The position numbers and the translations under genes were made by a program. From Nitrospira sp. (GTDB lineage: Bacteria; Nitrospirota; Nitrospiria; Nitrospirales; UBA8639), in the NCBI GenBank assembly GCA_020430245.1, contig JAGQKG010000003.1:1-41677 (forward strand): a stretch of 41,677 nt of DNA, given 5' to 3'. Shown in pieces: positions 6,374 through 24,528 of this stretch (positions within the stretch are counted from its first letter, which is position 1; each line of letters starts with the position of its first letter). The notes under the pieces were generated by a model. The model was not told where the DNA came from, did not search any database, and saw only the letters and a list, made by a program, of their open reading frames with translations.

Positions 6374-6417
6374 TTGGCCCCGGAAGTAGAACCGCGCCAC
6401 TACTCAGAAAAACCATC

Positions 6418-6855: not shown

Positions 6856-6868
6856 AAAGGAGGAACCG

Positions 6869-7207
6869 ATGGGAGCCGAAGAAGAGGAGTTGAAAAGCAA
6901 AATTCGTCGGCTGGTCAAAGAACGGTTTGACGGTGACTTTCGTAAAGGGTTCGACCACTACGGTAAAATCGATGAAGAGGATGCAAAGATCGGCTCGTCC
7001 GCGTTGGAACAACTCTTAACGGATGCCAAGGTAGGAAATTTTCTGACCCGAGCACTATGGGTGGAAGGCGTCCTGAAGGTACTCGACAAGGATAAGGACG
7101 GTGCCATTTCCTGGGACGAGTTCGAATCGATTCTTGAGGACGGCCCCCAAATCAAGGACGAAACGGGCAAGGAGCCGGAAGATGATATCCCATCCCGTGA
7201 CAAGTAG
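6869..7207 (+). CDS. EF-hand protein
   Basis: The 112-residue acidic, soluble protein has one canonical EF-hand loop at residues 73-84 (D73-K-D75-K-D77-G-A-I-S81-W-D-E84), with all Ca2+ ligand positions filled including the bidentate Glu at position 12. A degenerate first half (residues 21-45) could be a broken partner hand. It lacks an export signal, so it is probably a cytoplasmic Ca2+ sensor or buffer. The ATG at 6869 is chosen because AAAGGAGG lies five bases upstream; the frame open further upstream overlaps the lipoprotein gene. A CorA-type gene converges on it. Confidence 0.75.
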   Translation: MGAEEEELKSKIRRLVKERFDGDFRKGFDHYGKIDEEDAKIGSSALEQLLTDAKVGNFLTRALWVEGVLKVLDKDKDGAISWDEFESILEDGPQIKDETGKEPEDDIPSRDK

Positions 7208-7278
7208 GGTTGGCTACTGGGAAGGTAAAAGTTTCGGTGCCGCTTTTCCAAAAGATCGACAAGGAGCGAGGAGATCCT

Positions 7279-8241
7279 CTACTCAAACCAGCCCCGCACA
7301 TAGAAAAATATTCCCAATCCCCCACCAAGCAAGACCATGAGAGCAAGGATAATGAAATAGCCATAGGAGGTCTGCAGTTCGGGCATATTTGTGAAATTCA
7401 TGCCGTAAATACCGGCAATAAGAGTGAGTGGCATAAAAATGGCGGAAATCACCGTCAGGATTCGAAGACGATTATTCGTGCTATTCTGCAGCGACAAATT
7501 GTAGTGTTGGAATAATCCCTGTAGCCGTCCCTCCAAACGTTCCAGCCAACGCTGCAATTGCGTTAATTCGTTCATCGCCTCTTTAAAATACAATCGTACC
7601 TCACTTAATTCCAATAGAGGGGATTTCAACGTAAGTAAGCCTCCCATGAGAATGAGACGATCTTCCGTCGTTGATTGAAGACGGCTAACTTGATTGGTCA
7701 GATTCTGAATTTCATTCAGAACCTCAGTGTTGAAACACTGGTCCAAATTATTTGACAATTTCGCAATCATTTGGCGAGTTTGCTGATACAATTCGATATC
7801 ACGATTAATACCCAATAACAGGACATGGAGAAGAAGATCGGTCATGGTGGTGGTTCCAATTCCACCGAACCGGTCGATCCTTGCGAGAATCTGTTCCGGG
7901 GGCAAGTACATTCCATGATGAAGAGTAATGAGGGTTTCTCTCACACAGATCATCGAAATATAGGGATCCTTAAAATCGTGTATGGCCGGGCGTGGAAATC
8001 GAAGAAATAAGGCGTGTGAAAAGGTTTCAACCCAGACACCTCCGGCTTGGGATTCGATCTTATCCAGCAGAGCAGTATCCAGATTCAGGGGTGCAAGAAC
8101 CTCACGCAGCCCTTTGGTAAAGTCTGGGTAATCCACATCGAATAAACGAACGATCCCATCCTCCAGCCATGATGCCGTAGGTCTTTCCTCGGTGCGTTGA
8201 AGCAAACCCTTCTCTTGTAGCCGGAAGCAATGGATCTGCAT
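7279..8241 (-). CDS. CorA-family divalent cation transporter
   Basis: The 320-residue protein has the CorA/ZntB architecture: a cytoplasmic alpha/beta N-terminal domain (residues 1-130), a long helical stalk (about 130-255) and two C-terminal membrane helices. The signature GMN is present in LTLIAGIYGMNFTNMPEL at the end of the first membrane helix, followed by a helix ending in FFYVRGWFE. The family forms pentamers that move Mg2+, Co2+, Ni2+ or, for ZntB types, Zn2+; the sequence does not tell which. Length is normal for the family. The downstream end converges on the EF-hand gene. No cotranscribed partner is visible, and 8242-8490 upstream holds no gene I can support. Confidence 0.9.
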   Translation of the reverse strand: MQIHCFRLQEKGLLQRTEERPTASWLEDGIVRLFDVDYPDFTKGLREVLAPLNLDTALLDKIESQAGGVWVETFSHALFLRFPRPAIHDFKDPYISMICVRETLITLHHGMYLPPEQILARIDRFGGIGTTTMTDLLLHVLLLGINRDIELYQQTRQMIAKLSNNLDQCFNTEVLNEIQNLTNQVSRLQSTTEDRLILMGGLLTLKSPLLELSEVRLYFKEAMNELTQLQRWLERLEGRLQGLFQHYNLSLQNSTNNRLRILTVISAIFMPLTLIAGIYGMNFTNMPELQTSYGYFIILALMVLLGGGLGIFFYVRGWFE

Positions 8242-8490
8242 TGAGAGGATCTTCCGAAGCTGATTGTTCTTACCAAAGATCTTGGAAGTCCAGGATCACG
8301 GTGAAGGTCATATCGTTCAGAGCAGCATATATCACAATGACGGAAGTTTTTGTTTGACCACACTGCCCATAACCGGAAGCAGGTTTGTCAGTAGAATTTC
8401 AAAATGGTTCGGTAAGTTTTTTTGAGGGCGACCATAAAAGACTCCCTCCCCGTTTACCCGGCATGAGGATGCCATCCGACTGAATCTGGC

Positions 8491-8904
8491 CTACCCCAAA
8501 AAAGCTAAGAGAACAAGAGGCGCGAAAATCAATCCCAATGCCCACTTCAGGCAGAGATTTTCCTCCTCGAGTTCGACAAGACGTTCCGATAATTGGTCGG
8601 TTGTCGGAAGCATCTCAGTGTGTAATTGAGGCGCTGGTGCAGGCTGCCCTTGGGAGCCCTTGGATTTCGGTTGAGGCCGGTCATCCTGTGAAACTAGACG
8701 GAGCCGTGTCGCCTGTTGTTCGTCATAATGAACGCGACCCGGCCAGGAAAACCTATTGGCAGAATTGTGTGCATTTTTCGGTTTTACCTCTTCAGGAAGC
8801 GCCGATTGTCCTCGACCTGTAGGTTGATCAGATATCGCAGCCCCCAATGAATTCGGAATGATCTCATCCAGTGGATTTGTCCCGATCGTGCTTCGTTTGG
8901 TCAT
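8491..8904 (-). CDS. Small ParA-partner candidate with C-terminal membrane anchor
   Basis: The 137-residue product starts MTKRSTIGTNPLDEIIPNS, a short basic segment with a conserved-looking TIGTNPLD motif. It continues as a Pro/Gln-rich, low-complexity linker (about 30-95), then a short coiled-coil-like helix LSERLVELEEENLCL and a single hydrophobic helix at the C-terminus (about 119-136). It lies 49 bases downstream of parA on the same strand. ParA-type ATPases are usually stimulated by a basic N-terminal peptide of their partner, so the basic N-terminus fits a ParB/McdB-like adaptor that is tail-anchored. That role is inference; I do not recognise a named family. Confidence 0.6.
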   Translation of the reverse strand: MTKRSTIGTNPLDEIIPNSLGAAISDQPTGRGQSALPEEVKPKNAHNSANRFSWPGRVHYDEQQATRLRLVSQDDRPQPKSKGSQGQPAPAPQLHTEMLPTTDQLSERLVELEEENLCLKWALGLIFAPLVLLAFLG

Positions 8905-8953: not shown

Positions 8954-9715
8954 TCATCGTCTTTCCTGTCTAATCACTTCTTTTGCCAAAGCCCGATAAT
9001 CTTTCGCGCCATTCCCCTGCGGATCATAGAGAGTCACGGGTTTCCCGAATGAGGGACATTCCGCCAGCCGAATACTTTCTCTGACCACCACTCGAAACAC
9101 TTGCTTGCGAAAACGCTCCCGGAGTTGGGCAACCACTTCTAAGGCATGCCGCGTGCGAGCATCGACCCGACAGGCCAGAATCCCGGAAATCGCTAAATCC
9201 GGATTCAACCTGACACGAATCGTCTCCACCGTTTGAAGCAGATGAGCCAATCCACGTAAGGCCATCACATGGGCCTCAACCGGAATTAAAATTTCTCTGG
9301 CGGCGACCAAGGCATTGATAGTCACAAGACCAAGCGTGGGAGAACAATCAAGAAGAATATAATCCCATTGGCCGGACAGGTGAGTGAGCTGACGGTTCAG
9401 GATCATCTCTGCCCCGACCTCCCCGGCCAACGCCTTATCCACCCCCACCAGCCAGGTGGAAGATGGGATCATCTCAACCAAGGGAATATAGGTCTGATGT
9501 ATGAGTTCCTTGAGATTTCTCGATTCCGTAAAGGCCTCGAAGAGCCCTTTTCCCTCTTCGGTCATCCCATACCAGTTGGAGGCTGAGGCTTGGGGATCCA
9601 GGTCGACCAGCAGCACTCTGCGCTTCAGTTCGCCCAGCGTTGCGGCAAGATTCACGGCGGTGGTCGTTTTACCACTCCCGCCTTTTTGATTGGTGATGGC
9701 AATGACGCGACCCAT
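8954..9715 (-). CDS. ParA-family ATPase
   Basis: Starting at MGRVIAITNQKGGSGKTT (ATG at 9715) gives 253 residues. The deviant Walker A is KGGSGKTT at residues 11-18, with the signature Lys at 11. Walker A' is VLLVDLDPQA, and the Walker B-like segment is DYILLDCSPTLGL. No N-terminal helix-turn-helix is present, as in small type Ib and cargo-positioning ParA proteins. The frame is open upstream to 9796, but the extra 27 residues do not look like a ParA N-terminus. It forms a two-gene unit with the small anchored protein downstream. No parB or parS is evident, so a role in positioning a cargo other than the chromosome is likely but unproven. Confidence 0.9.
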   Translation of the reverse strand: MGRVIAITNQKGGSGKTTTAVNLAATLGELKRRVLLVDLDPQASASNWYGMTEEGKGLFEAFTESRNLKELIHQTYIPLVEMIPSSTWLVGVDKALAGEVGAEMILNRQLTHLSGQWDYILLDCSPTLGLVTINALVAAREILIPVEAHVMALRGLAHLLQTVETIRVRLNPDLAISGILACRVDARTRHALEVVAQLRERFRKQVFRVVVRESIRLAECPSFGKPVTLYDPQGNGAKDYRALAKEVIRQERR

Positions 9716-9845: not shown

Positions 9846-11207
9846 TCAGCTAATGGATTGTCCAGCCGCACTTTCAAGTAAAAGGATATTCCGTTGATAA
9901 TTGTAGAGGGCATCAAGATACGCCTCTTGGATATCGTTAGCCGTCCGAGCCGCATCAAGAAAATGAAGATTAGTCGTTTTCCCTGCCTTATACCTTTGCT
10001 CAACGGTGTTAAACAGAGATTCAGCGGAATGCAGAGCACTGGCCAAATATGTTTCCACTAACAGGCGACTGTGAAGGAGCTGACGATACGCAGTGTTCAC
10101 TTCATTCTGGATATCACTTAGGATCTTTTGCAAGTCGGTTTCCGCCATTTGGACCGCCGTGGCCGCTTCCATCATGCCGCCCTGATTCCTATCAAACACC
10201 GGAAGGGGTACACCAAGCGTTGCGGTCCACTGCTGTTGATTGTCAGGCCCTGTGGGTCCCTGCATCATAAACCCGACCCCAACGGTCACATCCGGATATT
10301 GCATTGCATGAGCAAGCTTCAATTCGGACCGGCGTTGGGAGGCCAACAGGCGTTTGGCTCGGATATCAGGTCTTTTTTCGGCAAGCTGATTTCGTAGACT
10401 GGCAATATCGGGATCAACCCGGTGGTACCGCAAGTCGTTAGTCAGTTCTAGTTCAACTTCAGGTGCAAGCCTCAAGAGCATTCGAATGTCGGAGTTGGCG
10501 GTTTCGATTTGCTGAAGGTCATTGATTACCTCGGTCTCAGCCCGTATTTGTTGAATGTGGAGACGGATCTCGTCTTCTACATTCTCCATAGTCTCATGTT
10601 GGGCCGAATCCTCGGATATTTTCTCTAATATTTTCTTGAGCCGATCCCGCCGTTTTTTATCGACTTCCAGATGCTGCCGCCCCACTTGCAATCGATAGTA
10701 GGTGTCCTTCACAGCGAAACTCATCTGTCGAAGCGTGTCTTCAAAAATCGCCTCAGCCGATTGGGCCCCCAACTCAGCGCTTTCGATCCGAAACCCCCGT
10801 TTGCCTGCCATTTCAAACAGTTGACTGATTTCAGGCAAAATGCCCCGGCAATCAGCGAAGGTGCACTTTTGGGTGAAGGCACTGAAGCCCGCGATGGAAA
10901 GTTCAGGATTGGGGAACAGGCCCGCGGTAATTTTTCTGGCTTTTGCGGTCTCAATCCCGTATTTGGCGATCAGAAGATCCTGGTTTTGACGCAAAAAGAT
11001 GGCAAGGGCCTCATCCAGACTCAGACGCAGCACCATGGGGTCCGGCTTCTCCAAGTTCCCCTCCCCCGTTGCAGCCACTGCGGGACTCAGACTCAGAAAC
11101 CCCGCGATCATCATTCCAATCATCAGGAACCATGCCCCCACGCACACGGTCCATCCCCCATTGCCTCTCACTGGATAGGAGACGGGTGTAGCCCAACTTC
11201 TGGTCAT
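9846..11207 (-). CDS. TolC/CzcC-like outer-membrane efflux protein
   Basis: Two outer-membrane-efflux-protein repeats are visible: LSLDEALAIFLRQNQDLLIAKYGIETAKARKITAGLFPNPELSIAG in the first half, and LASQRRSELKLAHAMQYPDVTVGVGFMMQG followed by a long coiled coil in the second. After a signal peptide (to about residue 42) the protein should trimerise into an outer-membrane channel with periplasmic alpha-barrel. It looks most like CzcC-type proteins of metal RND pumps. No RND pump or membrane-fusion gene is in the window, so it is an orphan here. The ATG at 11207 is preferred over 11234 because GGAGGGAGGAAAC sits immediately upstream. Length is 453 residues. Confidence 0.88.
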   Translation of the reverse strand: MTRSWATPVSYPVRGNGGWTVCVGAWFLMIGMMIAGFLSLSPAVAATGEGNLEKPDPMVLRLSLDEALAIFLRQNQDLLIAKYGIETAKARKITAGLFPNPELSIAGFSAFTQKCTFADCRGILPEISQLFEMAGKRGFRIESAELGAQSAEAIFEDTLRQMSFAVKDTYYRLQVGRQHLEVDKKRRDRLKKILEKISEDSAQHETMENVEDEIRLHIQQIRAETEVINDLQQIETANSDIRMLLRLAPEVELELTNDLRYHRVDPDIASLRNQLAEKRPDIRAKRLLASQRRSELKLAHAMQYPDVTVGVGFMMQGPTGPDNQQQWTATLGVPLPVFDRNQGGMMEAATAVQMAETDLQKILSDIQNEVNTAYRQLLHSRLLVETYLASALHSAESLFNTVEQRYKAGKTTNLHFLDAARTANDIQEAYLDALYNYQRNILLLESAAGQSIS

Positions 11208-11970
11208 ACGTTTCCTCCCTCCTGACAACTTCACTGATCAAATAATGACGACGGGCTCACCCTCCTCCACCAAAGGGGCCTGTGCTTGCGGAGGATTCGG
11301 CAATCAAGGCCGAGGGCGCTTCTACACCCGGGTGCAAATGGTAAGATCCTGGCTTTGCGGTCCCAATAATCGGGAGCCCTGATATATTATCTATCGAGCG
11401 AAGAAAGCTCAATGATATCTCGTCATCTTATAGGAGCGTCTCTTAGCATCCTGCGCTTCCAAACCTTCTACTGACCAAACTGCTGTCTGAATTTCTTATC
11501 ATGCCCATTTCAGTTCATGCTTTCCGCGCAAAGGCTTCGAAGGAAGACTGGATCCCGAGGTCGTGGGTTGAATCCCAACTCTTCGTGTTCGTGGCGGAGA
11601 ACCTCGCACCCACCTGCCAGCACTCCCCTCTTCTCCTGACCTCACTCATCGCTTCCCTGGTCAGGGAATTCCCCGAATTAGCCAACAGGTGCTATGCCTC
11701 TAACTTAAAAAAAATACCATGCCCATGGGCTATCCCCATGTGAAGTGGTTGGGATACTGGCGGCCCTGACTGTTGAGTGGAAGAGCCGTACTTTTATTCG
11801 GATTCCTTTTCTCTTTGTGAGTGTGAGATCCATAACATCCCGCTCTCAAAGAAATATGGAGCCAGCGCACGAAAATAGTTTTATACAGAGAGATAGTGAA
11901 TAGTGTGGTAGGTATTTAGTACACTGCTGAAACTCTGGGTTCTCTTCACCACTTCAATAAGAGAGCAACG
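11208..11970. other. Intergenic region, no supported gene
   Basis: This 760-base gap lies between the divergent efflux and antiporter genes, so it must contain both promoters. A plus-strand frame at 11501-11743 has no ribosome site and no family resemblance. A short stretch near 11560-11580 resembles a tRNA T-arm but no tRNA can be folded around it. Confidence 0.5.
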
Positions 11971-13038
11971 ATGGGATTGAATCTGCTATTGGTCTTCATC
12001 CCCATTGCCGTGGGACTTGATTGGTTCGACGCCAACCCTATCCTGGTCTTTATCGCTTCGGGCCTGGCCATTGTACCGCTCGCCGGGTTGATGGGGCGAT
12101 CGACGGAAAGTCTGTCGGTTTATATTGGCGCCACTCTTGGGGGATTACTCGCCGCCACGATGGGAAACGCCCCGGAATTAATTATTTCGATCTTTGCCTT
12201 GAAGGCGGGGCTTTACGATGTAGTCAAAGCCTCCATCACCGGATCCATCTTGGGAAATCTGCTGCTCGGAATGGGCCTCGCGATGTTCCTCGGCGGGCTT
12301 CGCCATAAACAACAAAAATTCAATGCGACCGCGGCAGGGATGAGTTCGGGACTGTTAACCCTTGCAGGCGTCGGACTCATGGTCCCGGCACTGTTTCATT
12401 TCACCTCCCGACAGGAGACAGAGCTCAGCACCGAAATCGCCATCGTGCTCTTCATTGCCTACCTCTCAAGTTTGGTGTTTACCCTGAAAACGCACCAGCA
12501 TTTATTTTCCGCGGAACCCCCAGAGCCGATTGAAGGGAGCTCCCACCCAAATGAGGAAGAACAAGAAGAGGTATGGAGTAAAAACATGGCCATTGGAATG
12601 TTAGCGGCCGTGACAGTAGGCATTGCCTTCATGAGTGAAATATTAACGGGAGCGATTGAACCCGCCGCCGCAAGCATCGGCCTCACGCCCATTTTTGCCG
12701 GTGTGATTTTTCTAGCCGTGTTCGGGAATGCGGCCGAGCTGATGAATTCAGTGCGGTTCGCCAGAAATAATCAAATGGATCTGGTCATGGGCATTGCCGT
12801 CGGGGCGAGCACCCAGGTGGTGATGTTTGTGGCACCGATGCTGGTATTCGTCAGTTACCTTCTCGGTCCCAAACCGTTGGATCTGCTCTTCGTGCCATTT
12901 GAAATTGCGGCCATTGTCATCGCGATTCTCGTCAACGGAAATCTCACAAAAGATGGAGAATCGCACTGGATGGAAGGCGTGATGTTATTGGGAGTCTATG
13001 TGATTTTGGGCATTGGGTTTTTCTTTCTCCCGATGTAG
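11971..13038 (+). CDS. Ca2+/H+ antiporter (CaCA superfamily, CAX type)
   Basis: The 355-residue inner-membrane protein has 10-11 hydrophobic helices in two related halves. Each half carries an alpha-repeat with its acidic residue: GNAPELI at residues 65-71 and GNAAELM at 252-258. The two halves are joined by an acidic cytoplasmic loop (EEEQEE at 195-200), typical of CAX exchangers. It should export Ca2+ against protons. The length is slightly under the 360-400 usual for CAX but complete. The ATG at 11971 is preceded by GAGAGCAACG. The next gene follows after 12 bases, so the two probably form an operon. Confidence 0.92.
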   Translation: MGLNLLLVFIPIAVGLDWFDANPILVFIASGLAIVPLAGLMGRSTESLSVYIGATLGGLLAATMGNAPELIISIFALKAGLYDVVKASITGSILGNLLLGMGLAMFLGGLRHKQQKFNATAAGMSSGLLTLAGVGLMVPALFHFTSRQETELSTEIAIVLFIAYLSSLVFTLKTHQHLFSAEPPEPIEGSSHPNEEEQEEVWSKNMAIGMLAAVTVGIAFMSEILTGAIEPAAASIGLTPIFAGVIFLAVFGNAAELMNSVRFARNNQMDLVMGIAVGASTQVVMFVAPMLVFVSYLLGPKPLDLLFVPFEIAAIVIAILVNGNLTKDGESHWMEGVMLLGVYVILGIGFFFLPM

Positions 13039-13050
13039 CTAGGCGAACCC

Positions 13051-13773
13051 ATGGCAAGCTTTGAATCCGTCCTTTCCGCACACTTCCCAAGCGCGATACC
13101 ACAGGGTGAGTTTGTCACACGTTCGTACGATCTTCTGCAGGCCGAGGGCTTCCGGGCCGAGAACACGATTGCCTTCGTCAGCGTGTGCCGGGATGAACTG
13201 ACCTTACCCCTTGTCGAGGAGATAAGACAAACCTGGGGTGAAGCTTTTATTTTTTCAAGTCTGGGTGGGATGCTTTTTTTGGGCAAGACCGGCTTCTTAG
13301 CCGCGCAGCACCATGCGCCGAATACAGACGGACGTGAGCGATATATCTATTTTGCCCTGCCGCACATCGGCGTGGATGCACAAGGCGAAATTGGTCGCCA
13401 CGATCGCCCTGGGCGGTTGCAACCATCCCATGCTTGCGGCGCCTTGCACGGTTTTCAAAGGGAATTGGCTAATCGATGCGTCTCTTTGGGAATCGATCCC
13501 GATGATATTGAACAAAGCCTGCTGAAACAACACCTCTTTCGCAAACTCACCTACGGTGACATTCCGGATCTGCTGAACCTCACCAAAATTGCCTATGCGG
13601 TGATTCTTGAAGAACTGGAAAGAATGATCCACTTAACCGTTGACCCCCTTCATAATGACTATGCCGTCCTGACCGGCATCCAGATCCATGGTCCCCAAGG
13701 CAAAGAATACATCTGGCCAGGAGAGACCTACTGGGTTCGGGAGGGAATTCGAAAGGGCTTTGTCTTATATTAG
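13051..13773 (+). CDS. LCIB/C-like (theta-type) carbonic anhydrase homologue
   Basis: The 240-residue soluble protein resembles the LCIB/C domain, which has a beta-carbonic-anhydrase-like fold. Key blocks are GFRAENTIAFVSVCRDE (C46, D48), FSSLGGMLFLGKTGFLAAQHHAP, a DGRERY-then-LPHIGV block (H105), GEIGR and HACGAL (C129). C46, H105 and C129 are the likely zinc ligands, the arrangement known in LCIB-family enzymes. It lacks a signal peptide and should act in the cytoplasm on CO2/bicarbonate, useful to an autotroph. It sits 12 bases after the Ca2+/H+ antiporter gene. I am fairly sure of the family, less of activity, since some LCIB members are inactive. Confidence 0.72.
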   Translation: MASFESVLSAHFPSAIPQGEFVTRSYDLLQAEGFRAENTIAFVSVCRDELTLPLVEEIRQTWGEAFIFSSLGGMLFLGKTGFLAAQHHAPNTDGRERYIYFALPHIGVDAQGEIGRHDRPGRLQPSHACGALHGFQRELANRCVSLGIDPDDIEQSLLKQHLFRKLTYGDIPDLLNLTKIAYAVILEELERMIHLTVDPLHNDYAVLTGIQIHGPQGKEYIWPGETYWVREGIRKGFVLY

Positions 13774-13918
13774 GCAGATGTTATCCGGGGAAGCACAAAG
13801 ATGGGAATCCTCCGCTGGCTCTTCAGAAGATCCCAATATCATCTGGGGCATTCTGGGGCATTTTTTGTGGTGTAGAATGTTTTCATAACGAAAGTCACAG
13901 ATTTTAACGAGAAATCCC

Positions 13919-13947
13919 TTGCAAAAAAAATCATACCTATTTATAAG
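13919..13947 (+). promoter_or_regulatory. Sigma70-like promoter of the ferrosome-like cluster
   Basis: TTGCAA (13919-13924) and TATAAG (13942-13947) are separated by 17 bases, and the first gene's ATG is at 14004 after AAAGGAGG. The transcript would start near 13954. No clear Fur-type operator is visible. Confidence 0.6.
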
Positions 13948-14003
13948 TGAAGCCTTGTGGAAGAATTGTGAATAAGTACTATGTCAAAAGGAGGACCTAA
14001 CAA

Positions 14004-14243
14004 ATGGAAGCTGTAATTGGTGGTGCCGTTGTTGGAGCGGTGGCGGTCGTGGCAGCCCCATCGCTCATTTCTGGAATTGGAGGGATACTTCGTCCCTTGG
14101 GGAAAGAAGTCCTCAAGGGAGGAATTGTGGCCTATACTGCCGTTTCAGAAATGATTGCTGAGACCGGGGAACAATTCAATGACATTGTCGCTGAGGCAAA
14201 ATCAGAAATTGCCCGGCCGGCGAAAGCCAAACCATCTAAGTAA
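14004..14243 (+). CDS. DUF5132-like small membrane protein 1
   Basis: The 79-residue product has a glycine/alanine-rich hydrophobic N-terminal helix (AVIGGAVVGAVAVVAAPSLI) with GxxxG-type small-residue spacing. An amphipathic segment (LRPLGKEVLKGGIVAYTAVSEM) follows, then an acidic helix (ETGEQFNDIVAEAKSEIA) and a basic tail. This is the DUF5132-like layout. Such proteins flank HMA2-domain genes and P1B-ATPases in several genomes. A strong ribosome site AAAGGAGG precedes the ATG. It is the first gene of the cluster and is matched at about 57 of 70 residues by the solitary gene at 39551-39805. A structural role in a membrane compartment is inference. Confidence 0.75.
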   Translation: MEAVIGGAVVGAVAVVAAPSLISGIGGILRPLGKEVLKGGIVAYTAVSEMIAETGEQFNDIVAEAKSEIARPAKAKPSK

Positions 14244-14261
14244 AGCAGATTGGGCCGGAAC

Positions 14262-14564
14262 ATGTCTCAGACCGATAAAGAAAAATCTGAATCAACGGAA
14301 AACCCACAAGCCGAGAGCGGTCCCGGCGGAATTTCAGAAGCATTCCGCCCTTTAGTGAAAGAGCTCGTGAAAGCCGGGCTGGTCGTATATGAAACGGTTT
14401 CAGAGAAGGCGTCGGGATTCGGAAAACAATTGAATGAGCTCGTAGAAGAAGCACGCTCTGAAGCTAAAAAAACGTCTTGCCATGACAGTGCCCCGGAAGA
14501 ACCCGAAAAAAAAAGCCGAGAGAGCAAACCTGCAAAAGCAAAGGAATCACAGAAAAAATCCTAA
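14262..14564 (+). CDS. DUF5132-related charged small protein
   Basis: The ATG at 14262 gives 100 residues. The middle (AFRPLVKELVKAGLVVYETVSEKASGFGKQLNELVEEARSEAKK) aligns with the second half of the neighbouring DUF5132-like protein (LRPLGKEVLKGGIVAYTAVSEMIAETGEQFNDIVAEAKSEI). The hydrophobic N-terminal helix is replaced by a polar, Ser/Glu-rich segment, and the C-terminus is Lys/Glu-rich. It may be a soluble or peripheral partner of the membrane versions. A TTG at 14250 is an alternative start. The spacing of 18 bases from the previous stop suggests translation from the same transcript. Confidence 0.65.
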   Translation: MSQTDKEKSESTENPQAESGPGGISEAFRPLVKELVKAGLVVYETVSEKASGFGKQLNELVEEARSEAKKTSCHDSAPEEPEKKSRESKPAKAKESQKKS

Positions 14565-14593
14565 AGAAGAACTTAAGATATATCCGGAGAGTC

Positions 14594-14998
14594 ATGCAGG
14601 AAAGAAAAATGAAGAACGAGAAAGACCTTCAAATTGTCCATGCTTTGCCTGGTCGAGTGCGTCTTAAGCTTCAACACCTGAAAAACAATGTTGCCTATGC
14701 CGGCCCCCTTCAACGACACCTTCTTGAAGTCCGGGGGATTACACATCTAGAGGCTAACCCCAAGACGGGAAGCCTTCTCATTCACTATGATCCCACTGTA
14801 TTAGAGGTTCTGGCCCTTCATCCGTCTGTTTCCTCCTGTCTGGGCTTACCCTCCTCTGATGCCAAGCCAGTTAAAAAAGAAACTCCTCCTGCCAAAGGTC
14901 GCGTCCAACCTCTAAAAACGACGCGCAAGGCCAAGCCCAAAATGAAGGGAAAAACCAAACCGAAGAAACCTTCCAGGAAAATAAAAGACAAATCTTAA
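14594..14998 (+). CDS. HMA2-like domain protein with basic tail (FezC-like candidate)
   Basis: The 134-residue protein has a ferredoxin-like HMA2 domain at about residues 12-85. It begins with VHALPGRVRLKLQHL, followed by GITHLEANPKTGSLLIHYDP, the typical strand-turn-strand pattern. The loop that holds CxxC in copper HMA domains carries the Arg-rich GRVR instead. The last 45 residues are Lys-rich with no hydrophobic stretch, suggesting binding to acidic membranes or polyphosphate. The same domain appears twice at the N-terminus of the adjacent ATPase. Free HMA proteins of this kind accompany P1B-6 ATPases in fez operons, from memory of that literature. The ATG at 14594 follows GGAGAG by a short spacer. 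Confidence 0.7.
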   Translation: MQERKMKNEKDLQIVHALPGRVRLKLQHLKNNVAYAGPLQRHLLEVRGITHLEANPKTGSLLIHYDPTVLEVLALHPSVSSCLGLPSSDAKPVKKETPPAKGRVQPLKTTRKAKPKMKGKTKPKKPSRKIKDKS

Positions 14999-15137
14999 AT
15001 TTAACAATAGCGACCATGTCGAGGTTGGCGAGAGAAACACCGAAATGGGATTCGATTTCACCCTTTATAAATACAAGTTACCAAGCTGGTGCAGATTTTC
15101 CCCCACCTTTCCACTTCAATCATAAGGATTTATACCC

Positions 15138-17741
15138 ATGGGCGTTCCCTCTGCCTCCATTATTCATGCTATTCCAGGACGTCTTCGTGTAAAACTGTCT
15201 GAAGACGAGCAAAATTATGACTCTGCGGAAGCGATCGATCTCAAACTTTCTGAGTTGGAAGGGGTCGATGAAGTTACAAGAAATGTCACAACCGGTCACC
15301 TCGTTCTCCACTACGATCAATGCCTGGGCAGCAATCCGAAATTCTTCCGTTCGGTAGCTGAAACCCTCGGCATCTCCCCAAACGATTTTGCCAACGACAG
15401 CCTCGAAACATCTTTTGAGCACATTGCGCATGACCAAAGCAATGGGAGTGGAGTCAAGTCCGCTTCGAAAGATCAAGCATACACCCTACCTGCCACCGTT
15501 CCCAATATCATGGTCTCTTCCAAGGTCGTCCACTCACTTCCAGGACGAGTGCGTCTTCGTGTCCCGGCTTTGCAAATTCGTGCCCAGCTTGCCGAAGCCC
15601 TCCCTATCTTTTTACAAGACCAGGAAGGCATTCAGGACGTGAGAGTCAATTCCAGCTGCTCTAGCGTCACGGTGACATGTGACCCGGACCGCTGGGACGC
15701 GGAAAACCTCTGCCAGTTCCTGCGAGGGCTTCGTCATGAAGACATTGAAGCCTACCAGCCCAAGCCGGTCACACAAGAACAAGCAGAGAATGTGGTCGAT
15801 GAGGAATCGGGCCCGGAATTGTGGTATTCAAGCACCGGTATTGCCATCGCTCTGTTCGTCGAATCCCTGGCGCCGATCGCTGTCCCCGCATTTCTCCTGG
15901 CTGCTGCCCTACCTATGCTCAAGCGAGCCTACCATTCTGTCGCAGTTGACGGGAAACTGAATGTGGATGTTCTTGATGCCTCGGCAACCGCTTTGATGTC
16001 GATACAAGGGGCCTTTCCCATGGCGACGGGTATGGTCTTTTTAATCAATGTTGCGGACTATATTCGTGACCTGACGGTCTTACAGTCCAAGAAGGCGATT
16101 GAGGAAGTCTTGGCCTATCAGAAGACTCAGGCTTGGGTCATCCGGGACGGGCAAACCATTCAGGTACCAGTCAGCGAGATTCAACGAGGAGAAACCGTGG
16201 TGGTTTATCCCGGCGAACGGATTTCCATAGATGGAACGGTCCAATCGGGAAAAGCCCTGGTGGATCAGGCTACCTTAACCGGCGAATCCATGCCGGTTGA
16301 AAAAAATACCGGCGACCCGGTCTATGCCGCCACAGTCCTGCGTGAAGGGGAATTGTACATTCAGGCTGAACAAATCGGAGATGAAACCGAGGCCGCCCGA
16401 ATTGTACGCTTGGTTGAAGGCGCCCCGGCCAGAGAAACCAAAATTCAAAACTATGCGGTGAAATGGGCCAATGACCTGGTTCCCTATAGTTTTGGACTTG
16501 GCGCGGTGGGAGCCGTGATTGGGGGCGGTATTCCTGGCGCAGCCGCCGTGTTAATTGTGGACTATGGAACCGGAATCAGAATCGCAGCCCCCACGACCGT
16601 CCTCTGCTCCATGACCAAAGCGATTCGCCATGGCATTTTGATTAAAGGCGGGCGCCACATGGAAACTCTGGCTGAAGTAGATGCCGTGGTCTTTGATAAA
16701 ACGGGCACCTTAACCATGGGACACCCCGACGTGGTGGACATTTGCCCACTTGGATCATTTACCGCAAATGAAGTCTTAACATTGGCAGCAGCTGCAGAGA
16801 ATCGACTTACACACCCTGTGGCCCAAGCGATTGTCCGTTCCGCGCAGGAACGTGGACTGAGTATCCCGGAGCGAACCACTTCCGACTACACACTGGGACT
16901 TGGCGTTGAATCCATAGTAGAAGATAAGATTGTGTTGGTAGGCAATCACCGGTATATGACGGAACAACGCATCACTCTTTCCAAAAAGATTAAAAAGCAA
17001 CTCAGCGAAATGGAAGATCGTGCCGTCTCTCCCCTTTGTGTGGCCGTGGATGGGAAACTCGCAGGCCTGTTGTCCTATACCGATCCCATCAGACCGGAGG
17101 CCATTGACGTGATTCACGCTCTCAAGGAACGTGGGATAAAAGAAATCGTCATGCTCACAGGGGATCATGAAAAAGTTGCGAAACGCGTGGCCCTGGATTT
17201 AGGGATTGACCGCTATATCGCCGAAGTCTTCCCTGGCCATAAAGCCGATGTGGTGAAGGATTTGCAGCGACAAGGGTATAAGGTGGCGGTGGTGGGAGAT
17301 GGGATCAATGACTCCCCGGCCCTCGCCTTTGCGGATGTCGGCATTGCCGTGGAAGGTGGAACCCAGGTCGCGCAGGATACAGCCCATGTGACCTTATTAC
17401 ATGGAGGCCTATGGAAGATTCCCGCGGCTATCGACATTAGTCGGGAAGCGGTCAGCTTGATCCATCAGAACTGGAAAATAATTTCTATCCCAAATACCCT
17501 GGCCTTGGGATTGGCCTGCATTGGAATCCTCGGTCCCATCGGCGCGACCCTGCTCAGTAATGGTTCAGCCATCATTGCCACTCTGAATGGCCTTCGACCC
17601 ATTATGGGAAAGCCTGCTTCCCCGCTACAGAGTATGCGGGTGATGGAGCCACACTTTGTGCCACATGATATTTCGGAATACGAGAGGCAAGAACAAAGCC
17701 CTCCGGTTTTAGAAGGCGAACTCATCACCATCCCGGCATAA
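15138..17741 (+). CDS. P1B-type ATPase with two HMA2-like domains (FezB-like candidate)
   Basis: The 867-residue protein has two N-terminal HMA2-like domains (HAIPGRLRVKL at 10-20, HSLPGRVRLRV at 132-142), a membrane core and a complete P-type ATPase engine. TGES is at 381-384, the phosphorylated Asp is in DKTGT (520-524), the nucleotide-binding HP is at 559-560, and the hinge MLTGD and VGDGINDSPAL (719-729) follow. In the transport helix the usual CPC is replaced: Y476-G477-T478 align with it, in VDYGTGIRIAAPT. So this is not a Cu+, Zn2+ or Cd2+ pump of the CPC class. The Arg-rich N-terminal motifs point to the P1B-6 group, whose member FezB loads iron into ferrosomes. The metal is inferred, not shown. 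Confidence 0.85.
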   Translation: MGVPSASIIHAIPGRLRVKLSEDEQNYDSAEAIDLKLSELEGVDEVTRNVTTGHLVLHYDQCLGSNPKFFRSVAETLGISPNDFANDSLETSFEHIAHDQSNGSGVKSASKDQAYTLPATVPNIMVSSKVVHSLPGRVRLRVPALQIRAQLAEALPIFLQDQEGIQDVRVNSSCSSVTVTCDPDRWDAENLCQFLRGLRHEDIEAYQPKPVTQEQAENVVDEESGPELWYSSTGIAIALFVESLAPIAVPAFLLAAALPMLKRAYHSVAVDGKLNVDVLDASATALMSIQGAFPMATGMVFLINVADYIRDLTVLQSKKAIEEVLAYQKTQAWVIRDGQTIQVPVSEIQRGETVVVYPGERISIDGTVQSGKALVDQATLTGESMPVEKNTGDPVYAATVLREGELYIQAEQIGDETEAARIVRLVEGAPARETKIQNYAVKWANDLVPYSFGLGAVGAVIGGGIPGAAAVLIVDYGTGIRIAAPTTVLCSMTKAIRHGILIKGGRHMETLAEVDAVVFDKTGTLTMGHPDVVDICPLGSFTANEVLTLAAAAENRLTHPVAQAIVRSAQERGLSIPERTTSDYTLGLGVESIVEDKIVLVGNHRYMTEQRITLSKKIKKQLSEMEDRAVSPLCVAVDGKLAGLLSYTDPIRPEAIDVIHALKERGIKEIVMLTGDHEKVAKRVALDLGIDRYIAEVFPGHKADVVKDLQRQGYKVAVVGDGINDSPALAFADVGIAVEGGTQVAQDTAHVTLLHGGLWKIPAAIDISREAVSLIHQNWKIISIPNTLALGLACIGILGPIGATLLSNGSAIIATLNGLRPIMGKPASPLQSMRVMEPHFVPHDISEYERQEQSPPVLEGELITIPA

Positions 17742-17822
17742 ATTGACGGGCTTGAGAAGCTTTACTGAACACACAGTTCGAAAGTATTCACGCAAACCGG
17801 TTCAAGAAGGGAGATTTGCTTA

Positions 17823-18062
17823 ATGTTACCAATCATCGGTGGTGTGGTCGTTGGAGCGATTGCAGCAATAGCTGCTCCATCACTCGTTTCGGGAGTGTCT
17901 TCCGGAATACGCACGCTCACCAAGGGAGTCCTTAAGGGTGGCATTGCGGCCTATACCGCAACATCAGAACTCGTGTCTGAATCAGGGGAACAATTTCAAG
18001 ATCTTGTCGCCGAGGCGAAAGCCGAAGTCAAGCAGGCAGAGAAAACACACGTCAAAGGCTAA
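17823..18062 (+). CDS. DUF5132-like small membrane protein 2
   Basis: The 79-residue product is a clear relative of the protein at 14004. MLPIIGGVVVGAIAAIAAPSL is the hydrophobic helix, TKGVLKGGIAAYTATSELVSE the amphipathic middle, and SGEQFQDLVAEAKAEVKQAEK the acidic helix. The ribosome site is GAAGGGAG. It begins 81 bases after the ATPase, on the same strand, so the family brackets the pump gene on both sides. Its role is unknown; a membrane-shaping or packing protein of the compartment is a reasonable guess. Confidence 0.72.
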   Translation: MLPIIGGVVVGAIAAIAAPSLVSGVSSGIRTLTKGVLKGGIAAYTATSELVSESGEQFQDLVAEAKAEVKQAEKTHVKG

Positions 18063-18125
18063 AGTTTTCCCCAACGAGAAATAAGAGAAGAGTGGCATGA
18101 GGGACCTAAAAAAGAGGAGAATATC

Positions 18126-18344
18126 ATGGAGACAGGCGTAGCGGGTTTGGTCTGGGGCGCGATCGGTTTCGTGGCAACGGCTGCGGTGGGGTATATTTCG
18201 CCCTATATCATTTCCGGTCTTCAGCAAAGTGTCCGCCCCGTCGTAAAAGGAATAGTCAAGGGAGGCCTGATAATCGATGCGACCTTTTCCGAACTGGTCA
18301 GTGAGGCTCAAGCGGAATTGACACATTCATCATCGTCATCATAA
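18126..18344 (+). CDS. DUF5132-related small membrane protein 3
   Basis: The 72-residue protein is more divergent: a hydrophobic helix GLVWGAIGFVATAAVGYISPYIISGL, then VRPVVKGIVKGGLIIDATFSELVSEAQAELTH, ending in a run of five serines. RPVVKGIVKGG and SELVSEAQAEL correspond to the conserved centre of the other copies. The ribosome site AAAGAGGAG precedes the ATG at 18126. It probably belongs to the same transcript as the preceding gene, 63 bases upstream. Confidence 0.68.
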   Translation: METGVAGLVWGAIGFVATAAVGYISPYIISGLQQSVRPVVKGIVKGGLIIDATFSELVSEAQAELTHSSSSS

Positions 18345-18482
18345 TTCTCTTACCTCACTCGAGGTCCAGTTCAGCGAAATTCAGGACTTGGATGCATGGC
18401 AGAGTTGTACAACCCGCCATGATTTCTATAGAATTTCATCGTTGCTTGGGACCAAAGATTTTTCATTTATAAGGATCTCCAT

Positions 18483-18818
18483 ATGCCAAAACGCGCAACC
18501 AGAACAACAAAGACAACATCATTGGGTGACTCAATGGCCACAAGCGGCAAAGAAGCTTTAGGCGGCCTTGAGGGGGGAATTACCGCACTCACCGCCGGAA
18601 TCTGGGAAATCTTTCACGAACATCCCAATGTTGGAGGAGTCTTAACCGGAGGTTTGGGCATTGGCGCAGCCATGACCATTGGTGTCGCCGAGATTGTGGC
18701 AGGGGTCGCCGCCGGGTATCTCGGGTACAGAATTTTTGCCTATGGGGAAACGTTTACCGAGGCCATTGAAAAAACCATCGAGTTCAGAGAAGGAAAGCTC
18801 TCAAAGGAAGAGCTTTAG
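18483..18818 (+). CDS. Two-helix membrane protein of the cluster
   Basis: The 111-residue product has a basic Thr/Arg/Lys-rich N-terminus (MPKRATRTTKTTSLGD) and a glycine-rich central hydrophobic region (about 45-85: VGGVLTGGLGIGAAMTIGVAEIVAGVAAGYLGYRIFAYG) that can form two tightly packed helices. A charged C-terminus (FTEAIEKTIEFREGKLSKEEL) follows. I do not recognise a family; the layout recalls small magnetosome membrane proteins such as MamC, but no sequence match is claimed. The gap of 138 bases before it could hold its own promoter. Confidence 0.6.
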   Translation: MPKRATRTTKTTSLGDSMATSGKEALGGLEGGITALTAGIWEIFHEHPNVGGVLTGGLGIGAAMTIGVAEIVAGVAAGYLGYRIFAYGETFTEAIEKTIEFREGKLSKEEL

Positions 18819-19262: not shown

Positions 19263-19388
19263 ATGAAAAAGACCTTTTATAATTTTATGGGTTGGCTTTC
19301 GTTAGTCGTGGGTGCAGTTTTGTTTATCATCCCAGGATTGCCGGGAGCACCGATTCTGCTTCTTTCTAAATATTTCTTTTCTATCTAA
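19263..19388 (+). CDS. Small membrane protein, DUF454/PGPGW-like fragment
   Basis: Starting at the ATG at 19263, just after AGAGGAGGAG, gives 41 residues: a basic start, then GWLSLVVGAVLFIIPGLPGAPILLLSKYFF. The pattern (Gly-Trp, hydrophobic helix, Pro-Gly-x-Pro-Gly-x-Pro turn, second hydrophobic segment) resembles the first hairpin of DUF454/YbaN-type or PGPGW proteins, which are usually over 100 residues. It is either a genuine microprotein or a gene truncated by a stop; I saw no convincing continuation in other frames. Confidence 0.5.
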   Translation: MKKTFYNFMGWLSLVVGAVLFIIPGLPGAPILLLSKYFFSI

Positions 19389-21428: not shown

Positions 21429-21827
21429 TCATTCCACCTTCGATTCTCTTAGTAATGCTCCGAACCGGAGACCGAGTTGGACTAATGCCAGTCCAGCCAT
21501 TAGGCTGACTCCCAGGTAGGTTATGCCGACCCAAATCTGATGTTGCTCCAGCACCAAGAGCACCAATGTGCCCCAAATCAGCGTGCTGAAGGTGGACATC
21601 CCACCCATCATACCCGTGCTATAAAACAATTGAGCCTTTCTCTCGATGGGACCGTTTTTCCCGGTGAGTTCAGTGACAAGTCCAATAAAAAAAGCCGCGG
21701 TCAGATTTGCCACAAGTATGGCCGAAGGGAAATGATTATGGAAGTTCATCCCCGCGAGCACCATCGTTTCCCGCATGGCTGCCCCGATGGCTCCTCCCAA
21801 AAATACCAGAATCATTTGGTTAAGCAT
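21429..21827 (-). CDS. crcB: Fluoride channel Fluc/CrcB, subunit 1
   Basis: The 132-residue protein has four membrane helices with family signatures: GGAIGAAMRE near the N-terminus, LVANLTAAFFIGL (the conserved Asn in helix 2) and GMMGGMSTFSTLIW in helix 3 (the Phe-box/Na+-site region). It forms an F- channel with dual-topology partners and expels fluoride. It lies 15 bases after the related gene upstream, the pairing typical of heterodimeric Fluc. Both follow ureD on the same strand. I saw no fluoride riboswitch. Confidence 0.92.
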   Translation of the reverse strand: MLNQMILVFLGGAIGAAMRETMVLAGMNFHNHFPSAILVANLTAAFFIGLVTELTGKNGPIERKAQLFYSTGMMGGMSTFSTLIWGTLVLLVLEQHQIWVGITYLGVSLMAGLALVQLGLRFGALLRESKVE

Positions 21828-21842
21828 GGAAGCCGGGATTCC

Positions 21843-22232
21843 TTATAACATTCTGGACGCAAGGGCTGACCCAAGAAAGGCGGCGACGAACGCCAAGGCA
21901 ATGGTCCCGAACAAATACATGAGGGCGAGGGAGGCCTTTTGGCGCTGAATGAGCTTGGTAGTATCGAGGGCCATGGCGCTGAATGTGGTATATCCTGCAA
22001 GGACTCCCGTCAAGACGAAGGTGTTGAACGGATGCCCGAAACGTTCCGTCCAGCCAAAGTCCAAAAAGACCGCAAAAAAAGCTATAAGAAAAGTTCCCGA
22101 GATGTTAAGCAGGAAAGTCGCGAGAGGGAATGTCCCACCATAGCATCTTCCCACGCCCAACCCAACCAACCAGCGCGCAAGCGAACCGATTCCTCCTCCT
22201 AGAGAAGCCAACATAAGGTCAGATCCACGCAT
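21843..22232 (-). CDS. crcB: Fluoride channel Fluc/CrcB, subunit 2
   Basis: The 129-residue protein has GGGIGSLARWLVG, FLLNISGTFLIAFF (conserved Asn and Gly-Thr-Phe) and GVLAGYTTFSAMALD, again four helices. It is clearly diverged from the neighbouring CrcB, as expected when the two subunits have fixed opposite orientations and form a heterodimer. The gene begins 44 bases after ureD ends, so it may be read with the urease operon. No functional link between fluoride export and urease is known to me, although fluoride is a classical inhibitor of nickel urease. Confidence 0.92.
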   Translation of the reverse strand: MRGSDLMLASLGGGIGSLARWLVGLGVGRCYGGTFPLATFLLNISGTFLIAFFAVFLDFGWTERFGHPFNTFVLTGVLAGYTTFSAMALDTTKLIQRQKASLALMYLFGTIALAFVAAFLGSALASRML

Positions 22233-22276
22233 GCGTCAAACCATTCTCTCAGCCGGGAGGGTTCGCAGATACCACT

Positions 22277-23185
22277 TCACCGCCAGGGAAATTCTTGCGG
22301 AACAGCGAAGCCGGTGACCTGGGGCCGCACCAACGACCAGAATTCTCGCACTTTCGTGCGCACGGTGTTCGACTCCTTCCCAACGACCTTGTAGATCAAT
22401 CCGGCATTGTTGGGCAACCGACTCACGCCTGCGGCCCACCTTTCCTCACAGTTCCAGGCTGCGGCCACCCGTCCATGGATCGCGTCCGCATGTTCCTGAG
22501 GGGTCAAAAGTATCACGTTGCCAAAGACGGTGAAATCACCCATAACGCCCAGTCGAGATGGTTCCGAGCGGCCGGGCTCGATGAGGAATTTCTCAATAAA
22601 CAACTTCGTCCCATCCAGTCGCTCTGCGGCAACTGTGGAGGAGAACAAGTCAAATTGGAATAGTTCGCCGTCGCCATAAAACTGGCGTCCTCCCATCAAA
22701 ATCTCCGAGTAGAGGAGAGTGGCTGTTGAGGCAATTCGGATCCGGGTGTGGGTGTGAAAGCGAGAATGTCGAAACGGAATTACGGTTTCAGGGAGGTATT
22801 CCAGATACGCGCCCTCCTCCAATGTAATGTCCTGCATCTGCCCCGCGTAGTTCGCGTCCATCTCATGAATCTTGGTGGCTGCCTGGGACGTTATGTGCCC
22901 GCAAGCATCGGGCCCGGCCGCAAACTCCATCGTGTAGCGATCCCCCTGGAGGATACCCCCGGAATTGGTGATGATGAACACCACCGGCAGATCGGGCATA
23001 CCTTCATCACAGTAAAGGGCCTTCTGCACCAGGAGCGGAGCCCTTCGCTCCGAGAACGCCAGGATCGAGCGATTACGCCGCGCCTCGAAGCGCAGACGCA
23101 GGAGCGCATTCTTGCCCAATGCGCCACTTGGTAATTGCTTCGGCTCGTCCTGATAAGGAGCGAGTTCCGGGGCTACAACCCTCAT
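22277..23185 (-). CDS. ureD: Urease accessory protein UreD
   Basis: The 302-residue protein has the UreD core: [21 protein letters not shown], then [12 protein letters not shown], and [16 protein letters not shown], in the expected order. UreD (UreH in some species) is the scaffold that binds apo-urease and, with UreF and UreG, delivers nickel through an internal tunnel. Its start overlaps the ureG stop by four bases, implying translational coupling. It is the last accessory gene of the operon, unlike the classical order with ureD first. Confidence 0.95.
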
Positions 23186-23820
23186 ACCTTCGGTTCCAGG
23201 AGATTCAGGTCGAACAATGCATTTTCCTTAATAAGGTCCACCAGGCGGTCGATGCCTTCTCCCGTCTTGCAATTGGTAAATACGAATGGCCGTTCTCCTC
23301 GCATTAGGCGGGAATCATGATCCATGACTTCAAGGCTTGCTCCAACGTACGGAGCCAGGTCCGTTTTGTTGATGACCAGAATGTCTGACTTCGTGATTCC
23401 TGGTCCATTCTTGCGCGGAATTTTGTCTCCGGCGGCGACATCGATCACATAGATGAAATAATCGACCAAAGCAGGGCTGAAGGTCAGGGTCAGATTGTCA
23501 CCACCACTCTCGATCAGGACCACATCGGTTTCAGGGAACCGTGCTTCCATATCCTCGACGGCAGCAATGTTCATGCTCGGATCTTCGCGAACCGCCGTAT
23601 GCGGGCACGATCCGGTTTCGACACCCAGGATACGATCCTCTACCAGGATACCTTTCAGTGTGCGTTGGACGTGCTTGGCATCTTCAGTGGTCACAACGTC
23701 ATTTGTGATAATCAGAATGCGCCCTCCCATGTCCATCAGTTTCGGCGTGATCGCCTCGATAATAGCCGTTTTGCCGGACCCGACAGGCCCACCGATTCCT
23801 ATGCGTGTGATTTTCTTCAT
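23182..23820 (-). CDS. ureG: Urease accessory GTPase UreG
   Basis: Starting at ATG 23820 ([11 protein letters not shown], with GAGGAGA upstream) gives 212 residues. The P-loop GGPVGSGKT is at residues 10-18. The nickel-binding Cys-Pro-His motif appears in [19 protein letters not shown], the switch region in [17 protein letters not shown], and the guanine-specificity motif in INKTDLAP. UreG is a SIMIBI GTPase that dimerises on Ni2+ and GTP and hands nickel to urease. A GTG at 23835 is a less likely start. All catalytic motifs are intact. Confidence 0.97.
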
Positions 23821-23838
23821 GCGTGTTCTCCTCACTCA

Positions 23839-24528
23839 TTAATTCATAAACATGCGTACTTTCGCCTGCACATGCGCGGAGGCCAATATGTCCATCACAG
23901 GCGCGAAGGCCGCCATGTCCTCAAGCGAGCTGGCGACAACTCGTTCATAGGCAGCCTCTGCATCGGAATTAATCTCGAAGAGGATCGCCTGCGCATCCAG
24001 GTAATGCAGCTTCATCAGGCGCAATGATGCAGCAAGCATCATACTCGCCAGACCATACTGGTGCACCGCGAAGGCATCTTGCTCCGAAAGGCCAAGGGAA
24101 GCAAAAATCAGCGCCTGGCCAATCGGGTAACACCCCGGTGTCTTCCCTTCCTTGATCCGGCACAGCCACGCACTGGCCGCACTGGGACCTAACACTCGAT
24201 CGGCCATCTCGGCCAGTTTCCGGCCCATACGCACAGTCATCGTACGTATCTCCTCGTTCAGCTTGCGATTAAAGACCGCATGGTCCACCTCGTCGATCCG
24301 GCAATCGTCCCCCGCACGGGCTGCGCGAAAGGCGACAAGCACCGCGATGCCGTCCGAGGTCGCAACCTGCTCGACAGCGACCCGCACGAACTGTCGTAGC
24401 GATGTGAGGTCGTGCACGACCCCATGCTCCACAGCCGACTCCAACCCGTTGGAGAACGTAAACGATCCGACCGGGAGAACCGAATCGCCAAACTGGAGGA
24501 CACGCATCAGCTCAGGGATGGTCAGCAT
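23839..24528 (-). CDS. ureF: Urease accessory protein UreF
   Basis: The 229-residue all-helical protein begins with LMRVLQFGDSVLPVGSFTFSNGLE, a close variant of the UreF signature (FPVGAFSYSHGLE). It continues with a long helical core and ends in a conserved C-terminal segment. UreF bridges UreD and UreG and gates nickel transfer. It lies 18 bases upstream of ureG and 45 downstream of ureE, which fits one operon. Confidence 0.95.
   Translation of the reverse strand: MLTIPELMRVLQFGDSVLPVGSFTFSNGLESAVEHGVVHDLTSLRQFVRVAVEQVATSDGIAVLVAFRAARAGDDCRIDEVDHAVFNRKLNEEIRTMTVRMGRKLAEMADRVLGPSAASAWLCRIKEGKTPGCYPIGQALIFASLGLSEQDAFAVHQYGLASMMLAASLRLMKLHYLDAQAILFEINSDAEAAYERVVASSLEDMAAFAPVMDILASAHVQAKVRMFMN

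Follow-up and report, generated by a model that had tools for sequence, protein, structure and literature searches.

A 41,677-nt stretch of contig JAGQKG010000003.1 from Nitrospira sp. (assembly GCA_020430245.1; hereafter the window) carries, between positions 13,919 and 18,818, a cluster of small membrane proteins grouped around a P1B-like ATPase. Judging from alignment, both soft-metal ligand sites of this pump are exchanged for small or oxygen-bearing residues. The ATPase belongs to a well-supported clade, and in the order Nitrospirales it is co-inherited with DUF5132 membrane proteins, a high-scoring Ca2+/H+ exchanger and a dedicated partner of a ParA-type ATPase. On balance, we favor the view that these genes specify a membrane platform, and possibly a compartment inside the cell, built on the architecture of ferrosomes (fez) and of the PacL-CtpC effluxosome, in which a hard cation, most likely Ca2+, would have replaced the soft transition metal that those systems handle.

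The gene cluster

The window comes from a Nitrospirales genome of 4.05 Mb that is 88% complete, in keeping with the Nitrospira-like origin proposed in a preliminary description made from the letters alone; relatives in the same genus include the named metagenome-assembled genomes NPIRA03 and NPIRA06. The cluster is read on the + strand throughout and begins with D1 (14004-14243), a DUF5132 small membrane protein of 79 aa (PF17195, 39.1 bits against a cut-off of 25) with a Gly-rich transmembrane (TM) helix at its N terminus and an E/A-rich DIVAEAK tail at its C terminus. Next comes D2 (14262-14564), a charged relative of 100 aa that scores 18.2 bits with PF17195 and 72.5 bits with a hidden Markov model (HMM) of the family, and whose protein sequence contains no TM or hydrophobic segment. 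A free HMA_2 protein with a lysine-rich tail follows (14594-14998, starting at ATG 14594 or 14609; PF19991, 58.7 bits), in which GRVR stands in place of CxxC. The ATPase itself (15138-17741; 867 aa; TIGR01525, 514.9 bits) has two HMA_2 domains bearing GRLR (residue 14) and GRVR (residue 136), again with no CxxC. Behind it lie D3 (17823-18062), another DUF5132 protein of 79 aa (PF17195, 35.2 bits), and D4 (18126-18344), a shorter relative of 72 aa that was missed by Pfam and recognized by alignment and the family HMM (67 bits). All of these components, from the DUF5132-like proteins and their charged relative to the free HMA2-like protein and the two-domain ATPase, had been named in the preliminary description, and these scores bear it out.

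The last gene of the cluster encodes a small Gly-rich membrane protein of 111 aa (T111; 18483-18818), which has no family match above cut-off but does have homologues in related clusters. It had been described as a two-helix membrane protein; the membrane protein is present, with one strong hydrophobic stretch, and a second helix is only possible. The promoter placed near 13919 did not hold up, as no match was found there and promoter-like matches in the region are no more numerous than in shuffled sequence. Two things had been overlooked: a further DUF5132 gene, D5 (39551-39805, - strand; PF17195, 43.2 bits), about 22 kb from the ATPase gene, and the reach of the conserved gene set upstream to about 5.7 kb.

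An ATPase clade with altered metal sites

The catalytic motifs of a P-type ATPase (TGES, DKTGT, HP and GDGxND) are all intact in the window protein. There is, by contrast, no CPx, SPC or TPC metal motif in its fourth TM helix (TM4), which carries DYGTG instead (residues 475-479), and the last TM helix carries SNGSA (residues 807-811). Homologues were gathered from 147 genomes of the order, 246 of the phylum and 177 of the order of genome G250, as well as from plasmids; a search of the genome contigs with the single protein returned only six close relatives, all of them Nitrospirota. Three site types can be told apart among the homologues. Pumps with CPC are the ordinary kind. Those whose TM4 carries DYSC and whose last TM helix carries HN (SC/HN) are canonical P1B-6-like pumps, found in other Nitrospirota, Azospirillum, Vibrio and Fusobacterium; HN in TM6 has been named as a P1B6 feature (PMC9374683). 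The third or GT type, to which the window ATPase belongs, has D[YF]GTG, accompanied by SNGSA in its Nitrospirota members. Outside that phylum its relatives vary, with NN at the second site in Gloeothece, DFASG and SH in Deinococcus, and DLGTG and NN in Methylobacterium.

Maximum-likelihood analysis of 47 core sequences gathers the GT type into one clade of 22 rows (support 98/96) and the CPC type into a separate one (100/97), with the SC/HN pumps placed between them. Since the midpoint root serves drawing only, the GT clade is best described as next to P1B-6 and is not shown to be nested within it. GT and SC/HN pumps have different fixed residues in 22 alignment columns, 7 of which fall in the two site helices. 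From SC/HN to GT these are S to G at 477, C to T at 478, A to G at 479, T to A at 484, A to T at 804, H to S at 807 and T to A at 811, and the changes S477G/C478T and H807S relative to P1B-6 are fixed across the Nitrospirota members.

These results bear directly on whether the ATPase is of the P1B-6 group. The preliminary description had specified beforehand what would speak against a ferrosome, namely an ATPase branching with another group and lacking P1B-6 features; the window ATPase indeed branches apart from P1B-6 and is without both of its site features. A variant of the P1B-6 motif is also seen in locus L160 (genome G367, 6689-8800), where an ATPase combines DYACSTKL with HN.

Conservation and co-inheritance in the Nitrospirales

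The conserved synteny that had been anticipated is found: the whole array is kept in congeneric genomes whose ATPases are 86-90% identical to that of the window. One of these, at 90%, is a complete single-contig genome, so the array is no assembly artefact. Among the 147 genomes of the order, DUF5132 occurs in 13 of the 14 that have the ATPase and is absent from all 133 others (Fisher p 1e-17, not corrected for phylogeny), and the sole ATPase genome lacking it has its ATPase on a contig of 3.3 kb. By the family HMM, DUF5132 proteins adjoin GT pumps in the Nitrospirota loci examined, in the cyanobacterial locus (two copies) and, weakly, in that of Deinococcus.

Immediately upstream of the cluster lie genes for CAX, a Ca2+/H+ exchanger (11971-13038, + strand; TIGR00378, 356.9 bits, above the equivalog cut-off of 211), and for an LCIB-type beta-carbonic anhydrase (13051-13773, + strand; PF18599, 183.9 bits). 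A CAX orthologue scoring above 430 bits is present in 11 of the 14 ATPase genomes as against 0 of 133 others. It adjoins the cluster in ten genomes, including a split assembly (G059) in which it adjoins D1; in G073 it lies away from the ATPase, next to another DUF5132 gene. The carbonic anhydrase, at strong score, is found in 10 of the 14 and in about 10 of the 133 (p 1.5e-7), and sits within the cluster or about 10 kb from it in both Nitrospirales families.

Further upstream, on the - strand, are a ParA/MinD-family ATPase (8954-9715; PF13614, 176.8 bits) and its partner (8491-8904), which is found in ATPase genomes only. The partner has an N-terminal KRxTIxxNPLD motif, a low-complexity middle and a C-terminal TM anchor (residues 117-135). 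It is present in 6 of 6 ATPase genomes of the genus and 0 of 16 others, and a form of it in the second family occurs only in four ATPase genomes, where it lies between CAX and DUF5132; ParA itself holds that position in loci L028-L031. Specificity to the system is confined to three of the genes considered here, those for the high-scoring CAX, DUF5132 and the ParA partner; the carbonic anhydrase and ParA on their own are not specific to it.

Three other genes recur in both families, those for T111, for a TMEM175-type cation channel (5753-6373, + strand; PF06736, 83.9 bits) that is conserved with the cluster and adjoins the ATPase in L027, L028, L030 and L031, and for an outer-membrane efflux protein of OEP/TolC type (9846-11234, - strand; PF02321, 122 bits) that is conserved next to CAX. 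The two families keep the same genes in different orders, a pattern that speaks for a functional link and not just for shared descent of a block.

Some variation is seen around the exchanger genes. Two genomes of the window genus have a second CaCA exchanger, weakly YrbG-like, just upstream of CAX (L025 in G030, 13792-14781, - strand; L122, 5932-6990). A GT subclade made up of L032, L035 and L033, the second locus of G107, has no CAX or ParA and has an HMA_2 protein on both sides of the ATPase; G107 thus carries both GT subtypes.

Relatives in a probable magnetotactic family

More distant relatives of the ATPase (40-41% identity) occur in a family of another class, f28, which is very likely magnetotactic because magnetochrome domains were found in 6 of 6 genomes tested. 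Six of its GT loci share one fixed order: a YrbG-like Ca2+ exchanger, CAX, the GT ATPase, two DUF5132 proteins, an HMA_2 protein and an HMA_2-DUF454 fusion (L058, 6603-7223), the exchangers having been identified by family models in L058, L154 and L157. A seventh locus, in G321 and by its labels from another family, has CAX, the ATPase, DUF5132 and HMA_2 at a contig end. All told, 16 of 23 GT loci have CAX no more than about 4 kb from the ATPase, as against 0 of 10 canonical SC/HN loci (Fisher p 2.5e-4, computed with 16 of 22 and from loci that are not independent), and the linkage recurs in two orders of the phylum with differing gene orders.

The canonical SC/HN loci of the phylum have HMA_2 proteins and a PacL-like protein, and no CAX; two of them, L061 and L158, adjoin feoB. 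In L158 (G328), two divergent P1B-6 ATPases of the DYSC/HN type (5886-8264 and 10605-12887), a PacL-like protein and feoB fall within 9 kb, making this locus a good candidate for a fez-type cluster in the Nitrospirota.

A different pairing is found on a plasmid of Microvirga sp. VF16 (L078, 5413-12144), where a P2-type pump akin to calcium ATPases has two DUF5132 frames and an HMA_2 protein at its flanks. This pump scores 539 bits with a PMR1-type model, under the equivalog cut-off of 798, and has an N-terminal HMA_2-like stretch. The arrangement looks like the scaffold module joined to a different class of pump, and is a hint toward calcium.

Comparison with known systems

The ferrosome literature (Grant 2022, Pi 2023, as cited in PMC12574912, PMC10979944 and PMC12016538) describes clusters with a P1B-6 ATPase, FezB, and the window shares with them a P-type ATPase, an HMA-type protein and small TM proteins in one cluster. 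It differs in its TM sites, GT and SN as against SC and HN, and in its surroundings, where calcium exchangers, a carbonic anhydrase and a ParA pair take the place of iron genes. A scan of cluster proteins gave no Pfam match to FezC/DUF4405 or DUF6110, and no feo or other iron gene; a search for DUF6110 over the 246 phylum genomes also gave no match, but gave none in the controls either.

The effluxosome of Mycobacterium tuberculosis offers a second parallel. PacL scaffolds (DUF1490, with DUF6110 relatives beside P1B6 pumps) assemble P1B6-like pumps, clustering through a glycine motif in the TM helix and holding the N-terminal domain of the pump through E/A repeats (PMC9374683, PMC13043812). 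The window proteins have the same Gly-motif helix and E/A-rich cytoplasmic tail, are likewise encoded with a P1B6-like pump and likewise come as several paralogues; CtpC, however, retains CPC and HN, and the His-rich metal motif of PacL1 is absent in the window. Most of DUF5132 can be aligned by hhalign to the PacL-like protein of SC/HN clusters (probability 86%, E 5e-6), whereas its match to DUF1490, represented by one sequence only, is not significant (probability 2%, E 0.02). DUF5132 is not named in any paper found by a literature search.

Calcyanin consists of a CoBaHMA domain and glycine zippers. By description, the window resembles it in having a basic HMA domain devoid of CxxC and Gly-zipper-like segments in a calcium context, but here the modules are separate proteins and a P-type pump is present. 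Membrane-bounded bodies holding intracellular Ca-carbonate occur in several bacteria. The calcyanin gene, ccyA, is tied to the amorphous form of the mineral in cyanobacteria, but calcifying Achromatium and magnetotactic bacteria lack it and have no gene set assigned to the trait (PMC11773610). Magnetotactic Nitrospirota of the Thermodesulfovibrionales do form intracellular Ca-carbonate, and their calcification has been tied to copy numbers of a Ca2+/H+ antiporter and YrbG, with no gene cluster named (PMC12710302). The ParA pair, finally, recalls McdAB/ParA positioning (PMC13052382) in that a ParA-type ATPase stands beside a partner with a basic N-terminal motif and a low-complexity middle; the window partner differs in ending in a TM anchor and in being linked to a pump cluster rather than to a protein-shell compartment.

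Proposed function and alternatives

From the observed gene content, conservation, co-inheritance, site substitutions and tree, we infer a substrate, a direction of transport, a compartment, a mineral and a mode of positioning as follows. By analogy with PacL, DUF5132 would insert by its Gly-rich N-terminal helix, cluster in the membrane and gather the GT pump, which its acidic E/A tail would hold. The HMA_2 domains are basic and lack CxxC, and soft-metal binding by them is unlikely; in light of the CoBaHMA literature, their GRxR loops may dock on anionic lipid or on DUF5132 tails rather than on metal. The ATPase would move a cation across the platform membrane, with Asp475, Thr478, Ser807 and Asn808 as candidate oxygen ligands, while CAX, joined in the magnetotactic relatives by the YrbG-like exchanger, would move Ca2+ against H+. 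The carbonic anhydrase could supply (bi)carbonate, which makes Ca-carbonate a plausible stored form, and ParA with its tail-anchored partner might space patches or compartments in the cell. The recurrence of CAX, the YrbG-like exchanger and LCIB suggests Ca2+ and carbonate. Taken to its full extent, the proposal is tentative: an undescribed organelle system of the Nitrospirota, with relatives in other phyla, in which a calcium-retuned P1B-like pump, Ca2+ exchangers, carbonic anhydrase, Gly-rich scaffolds and a dedicated ParA pair would build and distribute membrane-bounded calcium (carbonate) bodies. The chance that this is a new organelle system is nevertheless realistic.

Several points weigh against a calcium platform. 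AlphaFold2 models of the ATPase (six sequences; predicted local distance difference test, pLDDT, 49) and of DUF5132 (pLDDT 55) are too poor for site geometry or a fold search, which leaves the alignment as the basis for the former; a pLDDT of about 75 was attained in the HMA domains alone, with a strand-strand-helix-strand-strand-helix order. The co-occurrence counts and loci are not phylogenetically independent, and both LCIB and ParA occur outside the system as well. Some GT loci have no adjacent CAX, namely those of a Nitrospira subclade (G064, G108 and the second copy in G107), G073, and the cyanobacterial, Deinococcus and Methylobacterium loci, and CAX may therefore be an addition in two lineages. 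Loss of Cys and His could also mean another ion or a degenerate pump, and both Ca2+ transport and the compartment are read from genes and sequence.

The reading offered in the preliminary description, a true ferrosome whose ATPase loads iron into a lipid-bounded organelle, draws on the shared building plan of P1B-type ATPase, CxxC-less HMA_2 protein and small TM proteins with an E/A-rich tail, on the alignment of DUF5132 with the PacL-like protein of canonical P1B-6 clusters, and on the position of GT and P1B-6 pumps on one side of the branch to the CPC type. It is nonetheless improbable: the P1B-6 site residues are lost, the ferrosome genes sought in the cluster were not found, separate canonical P1B-6 clusters with feoB exist in the phylum, and the conserved neighbors are calcium exchangers. 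Membership among the ferrosomes was rejected on site residues, tree and context. The ferrosome reading thus holds for architecture and not for membership or cargo, iron being the less likely cargo because the P1B-6 sites are lost, no feo was found in the cluster, and the conserved neighbors are calcium exchangers and a carbonic anhydrase. It is possible, if doubtful, that the locus specifies a PacL-type effluxosome, an efflux platform for calcium or another divalent cation that sits in the cytoplasmic membrane and encloses no compartment, with the carbonic anhydrase and ParA as ordinary neighbors. PacL proteins make membrane foci, not organelles (PMC9374683, PMC13043812), and CAX and the outer-membrane efflux protein would suit export; the strict tie between the ParA partner and the ATPase, however, suits a positioned body better than diffuse foci, and LCIB is enriched with the ATPase.

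The GT ATPase might instead move Mn2+, Mg2+, K+ or lipid, the calcium exchangers merely balancing charge or pH. The assignment to Ca2+ is indirect, made from gene context and site residues, and in the genus the TMEM175 channel and a CorA-type transporter share the neighborhood, yet we consider this unlikely given that CAX is linked to the ATPase in two orders of the phylum that arrange the genes differently, and that the magnetotactic operon has a second CaCA exchanger. That the ATPase has lost transport altogether and acts as an ATP-driven scaffold or sensor is very unlikely; all canonical soft-metal ligands are gone, but the catalytic motifs are intact, and the substituted residues are invariant among the Nitrospirota members, as would not be expected of a degenerate site.

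Specialists would find two features unexpected: a P1B-type clade in which small or oxygen-bearing residues have taken over both soft-metal sites, and ferrosome-like genes that are linked with calcium rather than iron. The operon of the magnetotactic family is a concrete candidate gene set for intracellular carbonate, one that can be checked in an already sequenced calcifier. If the proposal is true, the system would be a candidate for the genetic basis that intracellular carbonate in magnetotactic Nitrospirota still lacks, and some nitrite oxidizers would be predicted to calcify internally. The fez/PacL architecture would then also look like a general plan for membrane bodies that handle metals and whose cargo can be exchanged.

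Other genes in the window

Downstream of T111 is a short DUF454-like (PGLPG) membrane peptide (19263-19388, + strand; PF04304, 26.9 bits, under the cut-off). Between the TMEM175 and CorA genes lies a gene for an EF-hand protein (6782-7207, + strand), a weak assignment just under the Pfam cut-offs, which is retained in other ATPase-bearing genomes of the genus. The CorA-type Mg2+ transporter (7279-8241, - strand) adjoins the ParA pair and is kept with the cluster in the genus. Beyond the cluster, 21429-24528 (- strand) holds two overlapping CrcB-like fluoride-channel genes followed by apparent urease accessory genes UreD, UreG and UreF, named by eye, and a similar order is seen downstream of the cluster in L025.

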